Source: an uncultured Prevotellaceae bacterium (lineage in GTDB: Bacteria > Bacteroidota > Bacteroidia > Bacteroidales > Bacteroidaceae). From it: a stretch of 20,131 nt of DNA. The position numbers were made by a program, and so were the translations under genes. Below, one piece after another: positions 16,659 through 20,131 of this stretch. The notes beneath the pieces were generated by a model. It had not been told where the DNA came from. It ran no database searches and saw only the letters and a program-made list of their open reading frames with translations. The DNA lies in NCBI GenBank assembly GCA_947306845.1, contig CAMZHP010000018.1:1-20131 (forward strand). The letters run 5' to 3'. Position 1 is the first letter of the stretch. Every line of letters begins with the position of its first letter.

Positions 16659-17021
16659 TTATTCCAATTCCATCTTCCCTGTTTTCAGGTATTGCTCATG
16701 ACATCTTTTCTTCACATCCTTTTCTATGTCTTCTATGGCCCTGTGGGGATTGGAGAGCGATTTGATCCATACACAGATGGCAAACACCACGATGGTGATG
16801 GCCACGCTGACTATCCATCGCAGAACCTCGCTGCTGAGGGGAAGCATTTCCACGCAGATGATGCCGGTAGCCACAGGGATTCCAAACAGCAGCCAGTCGG
16901 CTCCGGAGGACATCCCGTAGGTAGCTATCGCATCCCTATATTCACGGTCCTCATTCAGCAACCGCTTTTTGTTTTCCAACCATAGCCGTTCAAATTCTTT
17001 CTCTTTGTTTTCCATATTCAT
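16659..17021 (-). CDS. Small membrane protein with two predicted helices, unknown function
   Basis: The product has 120 residues: a charged N-terminal helix (K-E-K-E-F-E-R-L-W-L-E-N-K-K-R-L-L), then two hydrophobic segments (about 42-58, W-L-L-F-G-I-P-V-A-T-G-I-I, and about 69-86, W-I-V-S-V-A-I-T-I-V-V-F-A-I-C-V-W-I), then a charged tail (H-R-A-I-E-D-I-E-K-D-V-K-K-R). No family recognised. Its ATG overlaps the hemW stop (ATGA at 17021-17018), giving translational coupling; a second ATG two codons on is possible. radA starts 24 bases after its stop. The layout suggests both ends face the cytoplasm. The position between hemW and radA is the only clue to its role. Confidence 0.75.
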   Translation of the reverse strand: MNMENKEKEFERLWLENKKRLLNEDREYRDAIATYGMSSGADWLLFGIPVATGIICVEMLPLSSEVLRWIVSVAITIVVFAICVWIKSLSNPHRAIEDIEKDVKKRCHEQYLKTGKMELE

Positions 17022-18136
17022 TCTATTTTTATCAAATCGCTCATCACCGTATCACTCATCATGATGCCCTCGTGGGTAAGGTGAAGATGGCCGTTCTCCA
17101 AAACAAGCCACTTGTTGGCAAGATGGGGGGTGGCGTTGTCAAGAACATATTGAGCCATATCCTCTCCGAACATAGATCTCACATCGTCTATAAAGATGCC
17201 TTGTGAGGTTCGCATCCTTGTGGTCACCATGTCGTTGTAACGGTCGGTCGTGCTGAGCACTTCCCTTTGGGATGGCAGAACCTCGTCGTTGATGCTGCTG
17301 ATGTATTGTGTCAGGTCCGGCACATTGCTGGTGCGGCTCGTGGTGTCGTAGGAATGGGCGGCGGCACCGATGCCAATGTAAGGGGTGCCGTCCCAGTAGC
17401 TACTGTTGTGACGGGACCGATATCCGGGACGGGCAAAGTTGCTGATCTCATAATGCTCGTAACCGGCTTCCCTCATTTGGGCGACCAGTGCGTTATACAT
17501 TATAATATATGTTTCATCATCCGTCGCGCTCACCTGATGCCGGTCGAGCATCTCTTTGAGAGGTGTGTTCTCCTCAAACATCAGGCTGTAGGCGGAGATA
17601 TGTTCTACTTGCAGGCGGAGGGCCTGAGTGATGTCATTTCGCCATTGTTCCAATGTCTCCTCGGGAAAACCAAACATCAGGTCGATGCTGATATTGCCAA
17701 TGCCGGCTTGTCGCAGCCTTTCTACTGCCTGGCGTCCTTGCTCTGCGGTATGGCGCCGGTGAAGGAACCGCAACCTTCTGTCGTCGAAGGATTGGATGCC
17801 CATGCTCACCCGGTTGACAGGCAATGTTCGAAGCATTTCCGCAAAGTTTTTGCTCACGTCATCAGGATTGCATTCCATGGTTATTTCTGCTGCTTCGCTT
17901 ACCTCGTAAACCTCCTCAATGGTGTCGAACAACTGATGAATCATGGATTCAGACAACAGTGATGGTGTGCCACCGCCTATGTATATGGTGCCAATGGTGG
18001 CGCCGCCTCTCATCCGCATCTCTTTGCACAGGGCATCTGTGTAGCTCTGTCGCATTTCCAGCATCGTCGTGGAATAGAAGCCGCAGTATATACACCTGGA
18101 ACGGCAAAAGGGAATATGGATATATAGGCCTGCCAT
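17018..18136 (-). CDS. hemW: Radical SAM heme chaperone HemW (coproporphyrinogen III oxidase-like)
   Basis: The protein has 372 residues. H-I-P-F-C11-R-S-R-C15-I-Y-C18-G-F holds the C-x3-C-x2-C radical-SAM cluster motif, followed by Y-I-G-G-G-T-P-S-L-L and S-M-G-I-Q-S-F-D-D-R-R-L-R-F-L-H-R-R-H, then the HemW C-terminal domain (Y-E-I-S-N-F-A-R-P-G, H-N-S-S-Y-W, G-I-G-A-A-A-H-S). The length near 375 and the absence of an N-terminal extension point to HemW, which binds heme and delivers it to respiratory enzymes, rather than the oxidase HemN. ATG 18136 lies only a few bases past a TACCTTTG box, so the mRNA leader is nearly absent. It heads the hemW - membrane protein - radA run. Confidence 0.92.
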   Translation of the reverse strand: MAGLYIHIPFCRSRCIYCGFYSTTMLEMRQSYTDALCKEMRMRGGATIGTIYIGGGTPSLLSESMIHQLFDTIEEVYEVSEAAEITMECNPDDVSKNFAEMLRTLPVNRVSMGIQSFDDRRLRFLHRRHTAEQGRQAVERLRQAGIGNISIDLMFGFPEETLEQWRNDITQALRLQVEHISAYSLMFEENTPLKEMLDRHQVSATDDETYIIMYNALVAQMREAGYEHYEISNFARPGYRSRHNSSYWDGTPYIGIGAAAHSYDTTSRTSNVPDLTQYISSINDEVLPSQREVLSTTDRYNDMVTTRMRTSQGIFIDDVRSMFGEDMAQYVLDNATPHLANKWLVLENGHLHLTHEGIMMSDTVMSDLIKIE

Positions 18137-18149: not shown

Positions 18150-18209
18150 GTGAAAAAATGTTTGCTTTTACTGTAGGCGTTGCTTCTTTTTTTTAAATGT
18201 ATTTAAAGA

Positions 18210-18279
18210 TTTGCGAATTTGTGGCAAATGTTTTGGCTGTTTGCCAAAAAATCAGTACTTTAGTCGGCAATTTCGCAAA
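18210..18279 (+). repeat. Nested inverted repeats around the EF-G2-like promoter
   Basis: Outer arms 18210-18221 and 18268-18279 pair at 11 of 12 positions. Inner arms 18222-18228 (TGGCAAA) and 18240-18246 (TTTGCCA) pair perfectly around the -33 box. A third pairing, TTGCC 18241-18245 with GGCAA 18266-18270, competes with the inner one. The left arms also form an interrupted 19-bp palindrome (18210-18228, TTTGC...GCAAA). A regulator-binding site is a plausible reading. Confidence 0.45.
18232..18263 (+). promoter_or_regulatory. Promoter of the EF-G2-like gene
   Basis: TTTG (18232-18235), 20 bases, TACTTTAG (18256-18263). The -7 box differs from TAnnTTTG at one base, and unlike most others here it is not followed by C. 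This fits a promoter that may need an activator. The leader would be about 48 bases. Confidence 0.65.
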
Positions 18280-18314: not shown

Positions 18315-20131
18315 ATGAAAGTCTATCAGACAAACGAAATCAAAAACATCGCACTCATTGGCAGTGCGGGAAGCGGCAAGACTACTCTTGCCGAGGCCAT
18401 GCTTTATGAGGCTGGCATTATCAAACGTCGTGGAACCGTCGAGGGCAAGAACACTGTCAGTGACTACTTCCCTGTAGAGCAGGAGTATGGCTATTCCGTG
18501 TTTCCTACGGTATTCCATGTCGAATGGAACAACAAAAAGCTTAATTTTATTGATTGCCCGGGTTCAGATGACTTCGTCGGTGGAGCCATCACTGCACTCA
18601 ATGTGACCGACCAGGCTGTCATCGTCGTCAATGGTCAGTATGGACCGGAAGTCGGCACCATGAACAGTTTCCGTGTGACGGAGAAGATTGGCAAGCCTGT
18701 CATCTTCCTCATCAACCAGCTTGACCGTGAGCACTGCGACTTCGAGGCCGTCATGAACAATATGCGTGAGACATTTGGCAGCAAATGTGTGGAAGTGCAG
18801 TATCCTATTGCAACAGGCCCGGGTTTCAATGCCGTCATCGATGTCCTTCTCATGAAGAAATATTCCTGGAAGCCAGAGGGTGGCGCTCCCATCATCGAGG
18901 ATATTCCCGCCGAGGAAATGGACAAGGCCGAGGAACTGCATGCCGCTCTTATCGAGGCTGCTGCTGAGAACGATGAGGCTCTGATGGAGAAATTCTTTGA
19001 GGAGGAGACACTTTCTGAGGATGAGATTCGCGAGGGTATCCGCAAAGGTCTGATCTCACGTTCTATCTTCCCCATCTTCTGTGTTTGCGCTACCAAGGAC
19101 ATGGGTGTGCGCCGCCTGATGGAATTCCTGGGCAACGTCGTACCGTTCCCCACAGATATGCCGAAGGTTTGCGACACCAATGGTGACGAGATTGCTGTTG
19201 ACAGCGAAGGCCCCGAGAGCCTCTTCTTCTTCAAGACTGGTATGGAGCCTCATATCGGTGAGGTGAGCTACTTCAAGGTGATGAGCGGAACCGTCCGTCA
19301 GGGCGATGACCTCACCAATGCCGACCGTGGCTCAAAAGAGCGTATGGGACAGATCTTCACCTGTGCTGGCGCCAACCGCATCGCTGTGGATGAGCTGAAA
19401 GCTGGTGATATCGGCTGTACTGTCAAACTGAAGGATGTGAAGACGGGCAACACCTTGAACGCCAAGGATGTGGACATCCGCTTCGACTTCATCAAATATC
19501 CCAACTCCAAGTATTCACGCGCCATCAAGGCTGTCAGCGAGAGCGACACAGAGAAACTGATGGCTGCTGTGCTCAAGATGCGTCAGGAAGACCCGACATG
19601 GGTGGTGGAGCAGAGCAAGGAACTGAAGCAGACCATTATCCATGGTCAGGGTGAGTTCCACCTGCGTACACTGAAGTGGCGTCTGGAGAACAACGAGAAA
19701 ATCCCTGTGATCTACGAGGAGCCGAAAATCCCGTACCGCGAGACCATCACCAAGGTCAACCGTGCCGATTACAGACATAAGAAGCAGTCGGGTGGTGCAG
19801 GTCAGTTCGGTGAGGTTCACCTGATTGTAGAGCCTTACACAGACGGCATGCCCGATCCCACCGTCTATAAGTTCGGTGGCCAGGAGTTCAAGATGAACAT
19901 CAAGAGCCGTGAGGAAATCGATCTTGAGTGGGGTGGAAAACTGGTCTTCCTCAACTCTGTTGTTGGTGGTGCCATCGACACTCGCTTTATGCCGGCCATC
20001 CTCAAGGGTGTGATGGAGCGCATGGAGCAAGGCCCGCTCACCGGCAGTTATGCCCGTGACGTGCGTGTCATCGTTTATGATGGCAAGATGCACCCGGTGG
20101 ACTCCAACGAGCTTTCCTTCATGCTGGCAGC
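18315..20131 (+). CDS. fusA2: EF-G-like translation factor with degenerate GTPase site (EF-G2 type), 3' end cut
   Basis: 605 complete codons are visible; an EF-G near 700-720 residues is expected, so domain V is mostly missing beyond the window. The fold order is EF-G: G domain with P-loop G16-S-A-G-S-G-K22-T-T, domain II, domain III, and domain IV (S492-G-G-A-G-Q-F-G-E-V). The GTPase motifs are altered. The usual D-x-P-G-H-x-D-F reads D80-C-P-G-S84-D-D-F, losing the catalytic His. N-K-x-D reads N134-Q-L-D137. The switch I block R-G-I-T-I is replaced by E-Y-G-Y-S-V. The domain IV tip loop M-H593-P-V-D-S597, which enters the decoding site, is conserved. This matches the Bacteroides EF-G paralogue (EF-G2), reported to support translation without GTP hydrolysis during carbon starvation under the regulator Cur; equating this gene with it is inference. 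No other translation gene is adjacent. Confidence 0.88.
   Translation, partial: MKVYQTNEIKNIALIGSAGSGKTTLAEAMLYEAGIIKRRGTVEGKNTVSDYFPVEQEYGYSVFPTVFHVEWNNKKLNFIDCPGSDDFVGGAITALNVTDQAVIVVNGQYGPEVGTMNSFRVTEKIGKPVIFLINQLDREHCDFEAVMNNMRETFGSKCVEVQYPIATGPGFNAVIDVLLMKKYSWKPEGGAPIIEDIPAEEMDKAEELHAALIEAAAENDEALMEKFFEEETLSEDEIREGIRKGLISRSIFPIFCVCATKDMGVRRLMEFLGNVVPFPTDMPKVCDTNGDEIAVDSEGPESLFFFKTGMEPHIGEVSYFKVMSGTVRQGDDLTNADRGSKERMGQIFTCAGANRIAVDELKAGDIGCTVKLKDVKTGNTLNAKDVDIRFDFIKYPNSKYSRAIKAVSESDTEKLMAAVLKMRQEDPTWVVEQSKELKQTIIHGQGEFHLRTLKWRLENNEKIPVIYEEPKIPYRETITKVNRADYRHKKQSGGAGQFGEVHLIVEPYTDGMPDPTVYKFGGQEFKMNIKSREEIDLEWGGKLVFLNSVVGGAIDTRFMPAILKGVMERMEQGPLTGSYARDVRVIVYDGKMHPVDSNELSFMLA

Follow-up and report, generated by a model that had tools for sequence, protein, structure and literature searches.

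The closest described system to the locus studied here is EF-G2 of Bacteroides thetaiotaomicron, a second elongation factor G which, in the accessible part of each source, is reported to carry out translocation without GTP hydrolysis (PMC12775393) and is associated with 'GTP-independent translation' (PMC10294740). Its gene, fusA2, is described in partly accessible literature as induced on starvation by Cur (BT4338) and as needed in gut colonisation, and under carbon limitation the fusA2 mRNA goes up 238-fold and fusA goes down 10-fold, according to the available portion of PMC6989115.

Second EF-Gs of other bacteria have also been characterized. In the text available from PMC3150367, Thermus thermophilus EF-G-2 is reported to bind and hydrolyse GTP and to make poly(Phe), and M. 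smegmatis EF-G-2 is reported to bind nucleotide, with ribosome-dependent GTPase activity absent. The same source parts the subfamily EFG II from EFG I by six type I positions (Gly16, Leu25, Ser61, Thr291, Gly333 and Lys352 in 1WDT numbering), lists seven type II positions where conservation is strengthened in EFG II without being absolute, describes the RGITI motif as relaxed in EFG II to xxxSx, with Ser instead of the Mg-ligand Thr, and describes NKxD as conserved in EFG II. Regarding the catalytic His of switch II, the E. coli EF-G variant H91A displays ~sevenfold slower ribosome-stimulated hydrolysis and unchanged intrinsic hydrolysis in the accessible part of PMC4532990, which also states that earlier groups claimed complete impairment by a His-to-Ala change.

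In this work, we analysed a stretch of 20,131 nucleotides (the window) from an uncultured Prevotellaceae bacterium, at whose end an earlier note, made from the letters alone, had recognized an EF-G paralogue. Our results indicate that this gene, fusA2, is an ordinary orthologue of an already described protein type and no new kind of gene. What is new, although minor, is that this type extends to rumen Prevotella, that a clade sharing the domain IV insertion is present in 74 of 198 Bacteroidota genomes, that hemW and fusA2 keep a divergent arrangement accompanied by a weak Cur-like element, and that the loss of the switch II His appears older than the insertion. No report of a Prevotella fusA2 and no assay of a Prevotella protein was found in the literature searched, which leaves out most subscription papers.

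Materials and methods

G domain motifs were compared in an alignment of the window protein plus 80 Prevotella-type orthologues (n=81, the window group) against 17 canonical EF-Gs. The other EFG II-type rows (n=82) consist of 73 insertion-bearing and nine insertion-less proteins. Partial or duplicate sequences (L091, L093, L096-L105, L107 and L108) were omitted from the alignment, and second copies (L106 and L109-L111) stand outside the counts of 81 and 82. L082 and L094/L095 were under the first BLAST threshold; L094/L095 were added for the tree. Domain conservation was expressed as mean pairwise identity of EF-G2 and of canonical EF-G from the same 10 genomes.

The tree of 82 rows was built by a quick method without bootstrap, its support being given as SH-aLRT, and included 13 of the 81 window-group rows, 12 of the 17 canonical EF-Gs, 53 of the 82 other EFG II-type rows (29 near-duplicates were dropped), two Tet(Q) proteins and two typed references. 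It contains no EFG II from other phyla, Thermus EF-G-2 being compared by motif only; long branches lead to six of its rows, and a very long one to Tet(Q).

Results

The window gene is a Prevotella orthologue of EF-G2

From the ATG at 18315, the forward strand can be read for 605 codons with no stop before the window end (Table 1). Four database proteins (P0001-P0004), listed at 100% identity over the window's part, are 719 aa long, so 114 residues of EF-G2 fall outside the window; on direct reading of P0001 and P0003, the latter differs from the window protein at two residues.

Table 1. Positions of the fusA2 motifs and of the adjoining features in the window.
Feature	Position	Strand	Remarks
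hemW (radical SAM haem chaperone)	17018..18136	-	divergent; 178 bp between coding regions
Degenerate Cur-like element AATGTATTTAAAGATT	18196..18211	+	5 mismatches to published consensus; lead only
Bacteroidota-type promoter-like pattern	18232..18263	+	TTTG (18232-18235), 20-bp spacer, TACTTTAG (18256-18263)
fusA2 (EF-G2, residues 1-605 of 719)	18315..20131	+	ORF from ATG 18315; gene continues past window end
P-loop GSAGSGKTT, residues 16-24	18360..18386	+	K22 and T23 invariant; Gly16 and Leu25 are EFG II markers
Switch I Y-G-Y-S-V, residues 58-62	18486..18500	+	stands where canonical EF-G has R-G-I-T-I
G3 D-C-P-G-S, residues 80-84	18552..18566	+	Ser84 at the switch II His position
G4 N-Q-L-D, residues 134-137	18714..18725	+	from alignment
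S-G-G-A-G-Q-F-G, residues 492-499	19788..19811	+	domain IV; from alignment
29-residue insertion, residues 508-536	19836..19922	+	missing in canonical EF-G and in insertion-less EFG II-type proteins
Tip loop M-H-P-V-D-S, residues 592-597	20088..20105	+	domain IV

The identity proposed in the earlier note, Bacteroides EF-G2, was corroborated by family model, solved structure and tree. Against the NCBIfam model NF058620 (EFG2_Bacteroid, cut-off 1000), the window protein scores 1121 bits over residues 1-605. It scores 392 bits against the canonical EF-G model TIGR00484 (cut-off 659.4), which together with Ser84 leaves it outside the canonical type, and 86 bits against the Tet(Q) model NF012154 (cut-off 1425). 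The best solved-structure match is 7uvp chain A, which aligns over 605 residues at 77.4% identity and is identical in sequence to 8dmf, an entry titled as ribosome-bound B. thetaiotaomicron EF-G2. When the full-length homologue P0001 was modelled with AlphaFold (mean pLDDT 89.9), 8dmf was the top Foldseek match, with a TM of 0.93 and 76% identity over 717 columns. The VIA-align Z order differs, canonical or mitochondrial ribosome-bound EF-Gs standing at 54-51 and 8dmf at 51.4, and different rankings are expected because one fold occurs in several states. Judged by these matches and by the clade described below, the window gene is the Prevotella orthologue of B. thetaiotaomicron EF-G2. The entry 7uvp contains an EF-G2 sequence under the PDB molecule name 'Tetracycline resistance protein TetQ', which makes it a source of misannotation.

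In the tree with EF-G and tetracycline-protection proteins that the earlier note had proposed, the window stands apart from both canonical EF-G and Tet(Q). Together with 12 Prevotella-type proteins and 7uvp it forms a 14-row clade (SH-aLRT 100), nested within a 58-row insertion-bearing clade (SH-aLRT 98), which in turn lies within a 67-row EFG II-type clade (SH-aLRT 100), with Tet(Q) and canonical EF-G outside; no single branch sets canonical EF-G apart, as Thermus EF-G is placed across the root. All six EFG II type I residues are found in the window (G16, L25, S61, T308, G352 and K371), and the type I positions are all EFG II-like in 82 of 82 clade rows, 7uvp included, and in none of the 17 canonical EF-Gs. 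Six of the seven type II positions lie inside the window; four of these agree (D220, L268, K489 and K490), the mismatches being I254 instead of V and L563 instead of E. By its markers and clade, the window protein belongs to the EFG II type and represents a second elongation factor G.

The G domain is altered in all EFG II-type proteins examined and conserved in fusA2

The motif readings of the earlier note (P-loop at residues 16-24, Ser84, NQLD and the absence of RGITI) all hold and are not due to chance. While canonical EF-Gs invariably display the His, NKMD and RGITI (17/17 for each), the switch II His column of the window group (n=81) holds S in 76, A in 4 and K in 1, its G4 Lys column holds Q in 80 and R in 1, and YGYSV is present in all 81 rows. 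Both the His and RGITI are missing from all 163 EFG II-type rows (81 of the window group and 82 others), which rules out a recent loss of GTPase residues in the Prevotella lineage. As every EFG II-type protein in the comparison has these losses, they do not reflect selection in fusA2 to discard the residues. The switch I hydroxyl is kept, because Ser61 takes the place of the Mg-coordinating Thr of RGITI; this Mg-ligand place is occupied by Ser (164) or Thr (3) in 167/167 EFG II-type rows, four of which are second copies. The G4 Lys is replaced in 31 of the 73 insertion-bearing relatives (Q 15, H 13, A 3) and kept in 42. In this alignment, NQLD is the G-domain change that departs from the published description of EFG II, the protein having no NKxD; this motif is, however, not diagnostic for EFG II, because EFG I has it too.

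Residues K22, T23, D80, G83, N134 and D137 are invariant in 81/81 orthologues, and mean identity of the G domain is close in EF-G2 (0.860) and canonical EF-G (0.868). In EF-G2 no domain is as well conserved as domain IV (0.895 vs 0.789 in canonical EF-G), whereas domains II (0.815 vs 0.914) and III (0.847 vs 0.950) are less conserved than their canonical counterparts. Further, dN is low relative to dS in the 18 of 80 loci compared, where many dS values exceed 1 and three are undefined. Decay of the G domain, or relaxed selection on it, is ruled out by the canonical-like identity and the low dN. EF-G2 thus appears, from its conserved residues, to be under selection for GTP-Mg binding, and the motif losses, being common to the EFG II-type proteins compared, do not bear out the proposal of the earlier note that selection had discarded GTP hydrolysis; the G domain is under strong purifying selection.

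Domain IV carries an insertion

The earlier note had described the domain IV tip as intact, which is correct in that SGGAGQFG and MHPVDS are present (each in 79/81 of the window group), but the 29 extra residues of domain IV had been missed. The interval between SGGAGQFG and VVGG is 29 residues longer in the window than in insertion-less EFG II-type proteins; in canonical EF-Gs it exceeds that of the same group by 3 to 13 residues. In the alignment, the insertion was found in 81/81 window-group orthologues and also in 7uvp. Among the other insertion-bearing proteins (n=73) there are 20 extra residues in 72 and 22 in one, the window group having nine residues beyond the 20-residue insertion (VYKFGGQEF in the window). 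Compared with the remainder of domain IV, the insertion varies more among the 81 orthologues (the commonest residue has a mean frequency of 0.859 vs 0.96), and in the model of P0001 it is predicted to fold as a hairpin (517-520/523-526) plus a strand (531-536), with block pLDDT of 86-93.

EF-G2 reportedly has a region of 26 residues found in no other EF-G, on which its activity depends and which accounts for its lack of GTPase (EMBO J, 2023); we presume this region to be the insertion at residues 508-536 of the window protein. On the present alignments, the insertion would be a stronger correlate of hydrolysis-free behaviour than the motifs cited in the earlier note.

Distribution in Bacteroidota

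Full-length matches to NF058620 of at least 739 bits were found in 74 of 198 Bacteroidota genomes, nine of them above the cut-off. The insertion is present in all 74 matching loci and was not seen in nine sampled lower-scoring proteins matching as 'residues 1-510'; the His is missing from all 73 insertion-bearing members outside the window's group. These comparisons provide evidence that the loss of the His predates the gain of the insertion.

A second, insertion-less EFG II-type group also occurs in Bacteroidota (L185-L190 and L195-L197), likewise without the switch II His; L195-L197 have T instead of N in G4.

Canonical EF-G and other paralogues in related genomes

A canonical EF-G domain IV was detected besides EF-G2 in 12 of 13 relatives' genomes, in two of them as a short open frame at a contig end. 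The exception, G001, whose EF-G2 is 97% identical, also lacks rpsL (S12), so the absence of fusA is most likely an assembly gap. Among 15 draft genomes (G001 being in both sets), seven have an EF-G above the cut-off and one more has a fragment at 611 bits. In the three genomes where both were found, S12 is encoded on the same strand as the EF-G domain IV match and ~2.1 kb upstream of it, an arrangement that fits the str operon.

Two Prevotella drafts contain a further full-length EF-G-like frame of 730 codons with ~495 bits to TIGR00484 (G212:C32:35373-37493 and G217:C53:3324-5447), representing either a third paralogue or contamination. Hoylesella pleuritidis and Prevotella communis carry a Tet(Q) gene (L094, L095) besides EF-G and EF-G2.

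Neighbourhood and upstream region of fusA2

The earlier note had placed the gene beside hemW and radA, and only the former proved a conserved neighbour. Of the 76 Prevotella-type loci whose upstream sequence exceeds 1.3 kb, 69 have a divergent hemW, at 118-316 bp by tblastn ends; in the remaining seven, no hemW above 150 bits was found within the stretch examined. By contrast, radA was near fusA2 in 0/66 loci with more than 3.5 kb upstream and in no other locus searched, nor is it there in the nearest relative L001, which rules it out as a conserved neighbour. Neither gene was found beside the deeper insertion-bearing genes (0/44 loci with flanks of up to 4 kb).

The promoter-like pattern is present upstream of 40 of the 81 genes, where shuffled sequences would give 1.25. 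Using the Cur consensus and the B. thetaiotaomicron fusA2 site from the accessible part of PMC6989115, the mean mismatch to the consensus falls to 6.68 at 36 bp upstream of TTTG (mean over 100 offsets 9.74, sd 0.69), and 19 of the 40 anchored promoters match it with 4 mismatches or fewer within the preceding 80 bp, compared with a mean of 6.5 and a maximum of 13 promoters in 200 mononucleotide shuffles. Near the window fusA2 there is no match within 3 mismatches, and no strong Cur site was found in the window, whose degenerate copy lies at the offset where orthologous promoters fit better. The element is treated only as a lead, because scanning was used to locate the offset and the hemW promoter probably lies in this region as well.

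Two conserved features, an A/T-rich element and a TTTTGGC block, are seen in the hemW-fusA2 intergenic region (18160-18235 in the window) of the orthologous loci (75 anchored), possibly corresponding to two divergent promoters with a common control region. In L001, the stem-loop that follows the gene is terminator-like on the opposite strand only. Elsewhere in the window, a 120-residue ORF between hemW and radA (16659-17021) has no NCBIfam match, although tblastn detected a relative in 16 of the 66 loci. Another ORF, at 638-2068 and close to a gene for a dTDP-sugar epimerase, encodes 476 largely hydrophobic residues with no Pfam match, and by eye resembles a polysaccharide polymerase.

Discussion

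The statement of the earlier note that translocation was kept and hydrolysis discarded agrees with what is published for the B. thetaiotaomicron orthologue, but the motifs that it cited are no proof of this. Thermus EF-G-2 (1WDT) displays DAPGYGDF, with Tyr at the His site, and HRTTV in place of RGITI, and reportedly hydrolyses GTP; because of this, motifs are insufficient to show a loss of GTPase, and it is unsafe to conclude from sequence that a protein without the His, RGITI and NKxD has no such activity. The missing His is indicated as a subfamily trait and not as a recent loss of GTPase, which alters the residues that merit testing.

Taking all the evidence together, we consider it likely that fusA2 of rumen-type Prevotella encodes a GTP-Mg-binding EF-G2 that performs slow, hydrolysis-free translocation, and that it is made on sugar depletion. 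That the Prevotella protein would act like B. thetaiotaomicron EF-G2 we infer from 77% identity and shared motifs; the way in which the insertion would act is likewise an extrapolation. An EFG II factor that still hydrolyses GTP slowly on the ribosome, the loss of the His merely slowing it, would be in line with the reported GTP hydrolysis and poly(Phe) synthesis of Thermus EF-G-2 despite its Tyr and lack of RGITI (PMC3150367), with the ~sevenfold effect of H91A in E. coli (PMC4532990), each as far as the accessible text goes, and with the invariant GTP-binding residues of the orthologues. We regard this as unlikely, since the 77% identical B. thetaiotaomicron protein is published, in the portions available, as having no GTPase activity, and the window shares with it NQLD and the 29-residue insertion, which insertion-less EFG II-type proteins do not have.

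Still less probable is a ribosome binder that does not translocate, that is, an idle-ribosome or hibernation factor, as M. smegmatis EF-G2 may be. That protein has been seen bound to the ribosome (9k0z) and, in the accessible part of PMC3150367, binds nucleotide without ribosome-dependent GTPase activity, and starvation expression would fit such a role; however, across the 10 genomes conservation of EF-G2 is highest in domain IV, whose tip is kept, and the B. thetaiotaomicron orthologue is reported, in what is available of the sources, to support translation. As for a tetracycline ribosomal protection protein, the depositor's name of 7uvp would speak for it, but the Tet(Q) proteins encoded in two of the relatives' genomes reach 1518 and 1507 bits against NF012154 and occupy a separate branch, and 8dmf, of the same sequence as 7uvp, is titled EF-G2; at the level of sequence, the NF012154 score of the window and the tree rule out this identity, to which we give hardly any credence.

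According to the preferred reading of hydrolysis-free translocation, GTP-Mg would be held in the intact P-loop pocket of EF-G2, and the GTP-bound protein would dock in the ribosomal EF-G site, where the domain IV tip would displace the A-site tRNA and drive slow tRNA-mRNA translocation. EF-G2 would then leave the ribosome without hydrolysis, the domain IV insertion being responsible; the insertion, and not the missing His alone, probably accounts for both the absent hydrolysis and the release. With EF-G2 made when sugars run out and canonical EF-G falling, slow GTP-free elongation would take place under carbon shortage. If the insertion abolishes hydrolysis, the whole clade could be GTP-sparing, the order of events being loss of the His, gain of the 20-residue insertion, and then the nine-residue extension and NQLD in Prevotella-Bacteroides, a scenario that we propose tentatively and hold to be rather doubtful. 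If true, hydrolysis-free translocation would not be peculiar to gut Bacteroides. The insertion-bearing relatives offer natural intermediates with which to ask at what step hydrolysis was removed.

Regarding the known systems, Tet(Q) shares with the window protein the EF-G-like ribosome-binding fold, but has its own NCBIfam model, a separate branch and ~20% identity. Canonical EF-G (EFG I, fusA) has the same five-domain fold and domain IV tip, and differs in its catalytic His, RGITI, NKxD and the S12 gene ~2.1 kb upstream, with 31-33% identity. M. smegmatis EF-G2 (9k0z) is likewise an EF-G paralogue, in which Tyr takes the place of the switch II His and which is cited as lacking ribosome-dependent GTPase; it shows 28% identity in structural alignment and lies outside the tree rows. 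Thermus EF-G-2 (1WDT) agrees in six of six type I residues and in the absence of the His and RGITI, while being a protein of 665 residues with reported GTP hydrolysis, and EFG II has NKxD where NQLD is found here. The likeness is closest to B. thetaiotaomicron EF-G2 (fusA2, BT2167; 8dmf, 7uvp), which matches the window in motif states, insertion, length (718-719) and clade, and in the separate canonical fusA of the window's relatives; the differences are the 77% identity, the divergent hemW upstream in Prevotella and the weaker Cur-like site of Prevotella. A published starvation translation factor of Bacteroides is thereby extended to rumen Prevotella.
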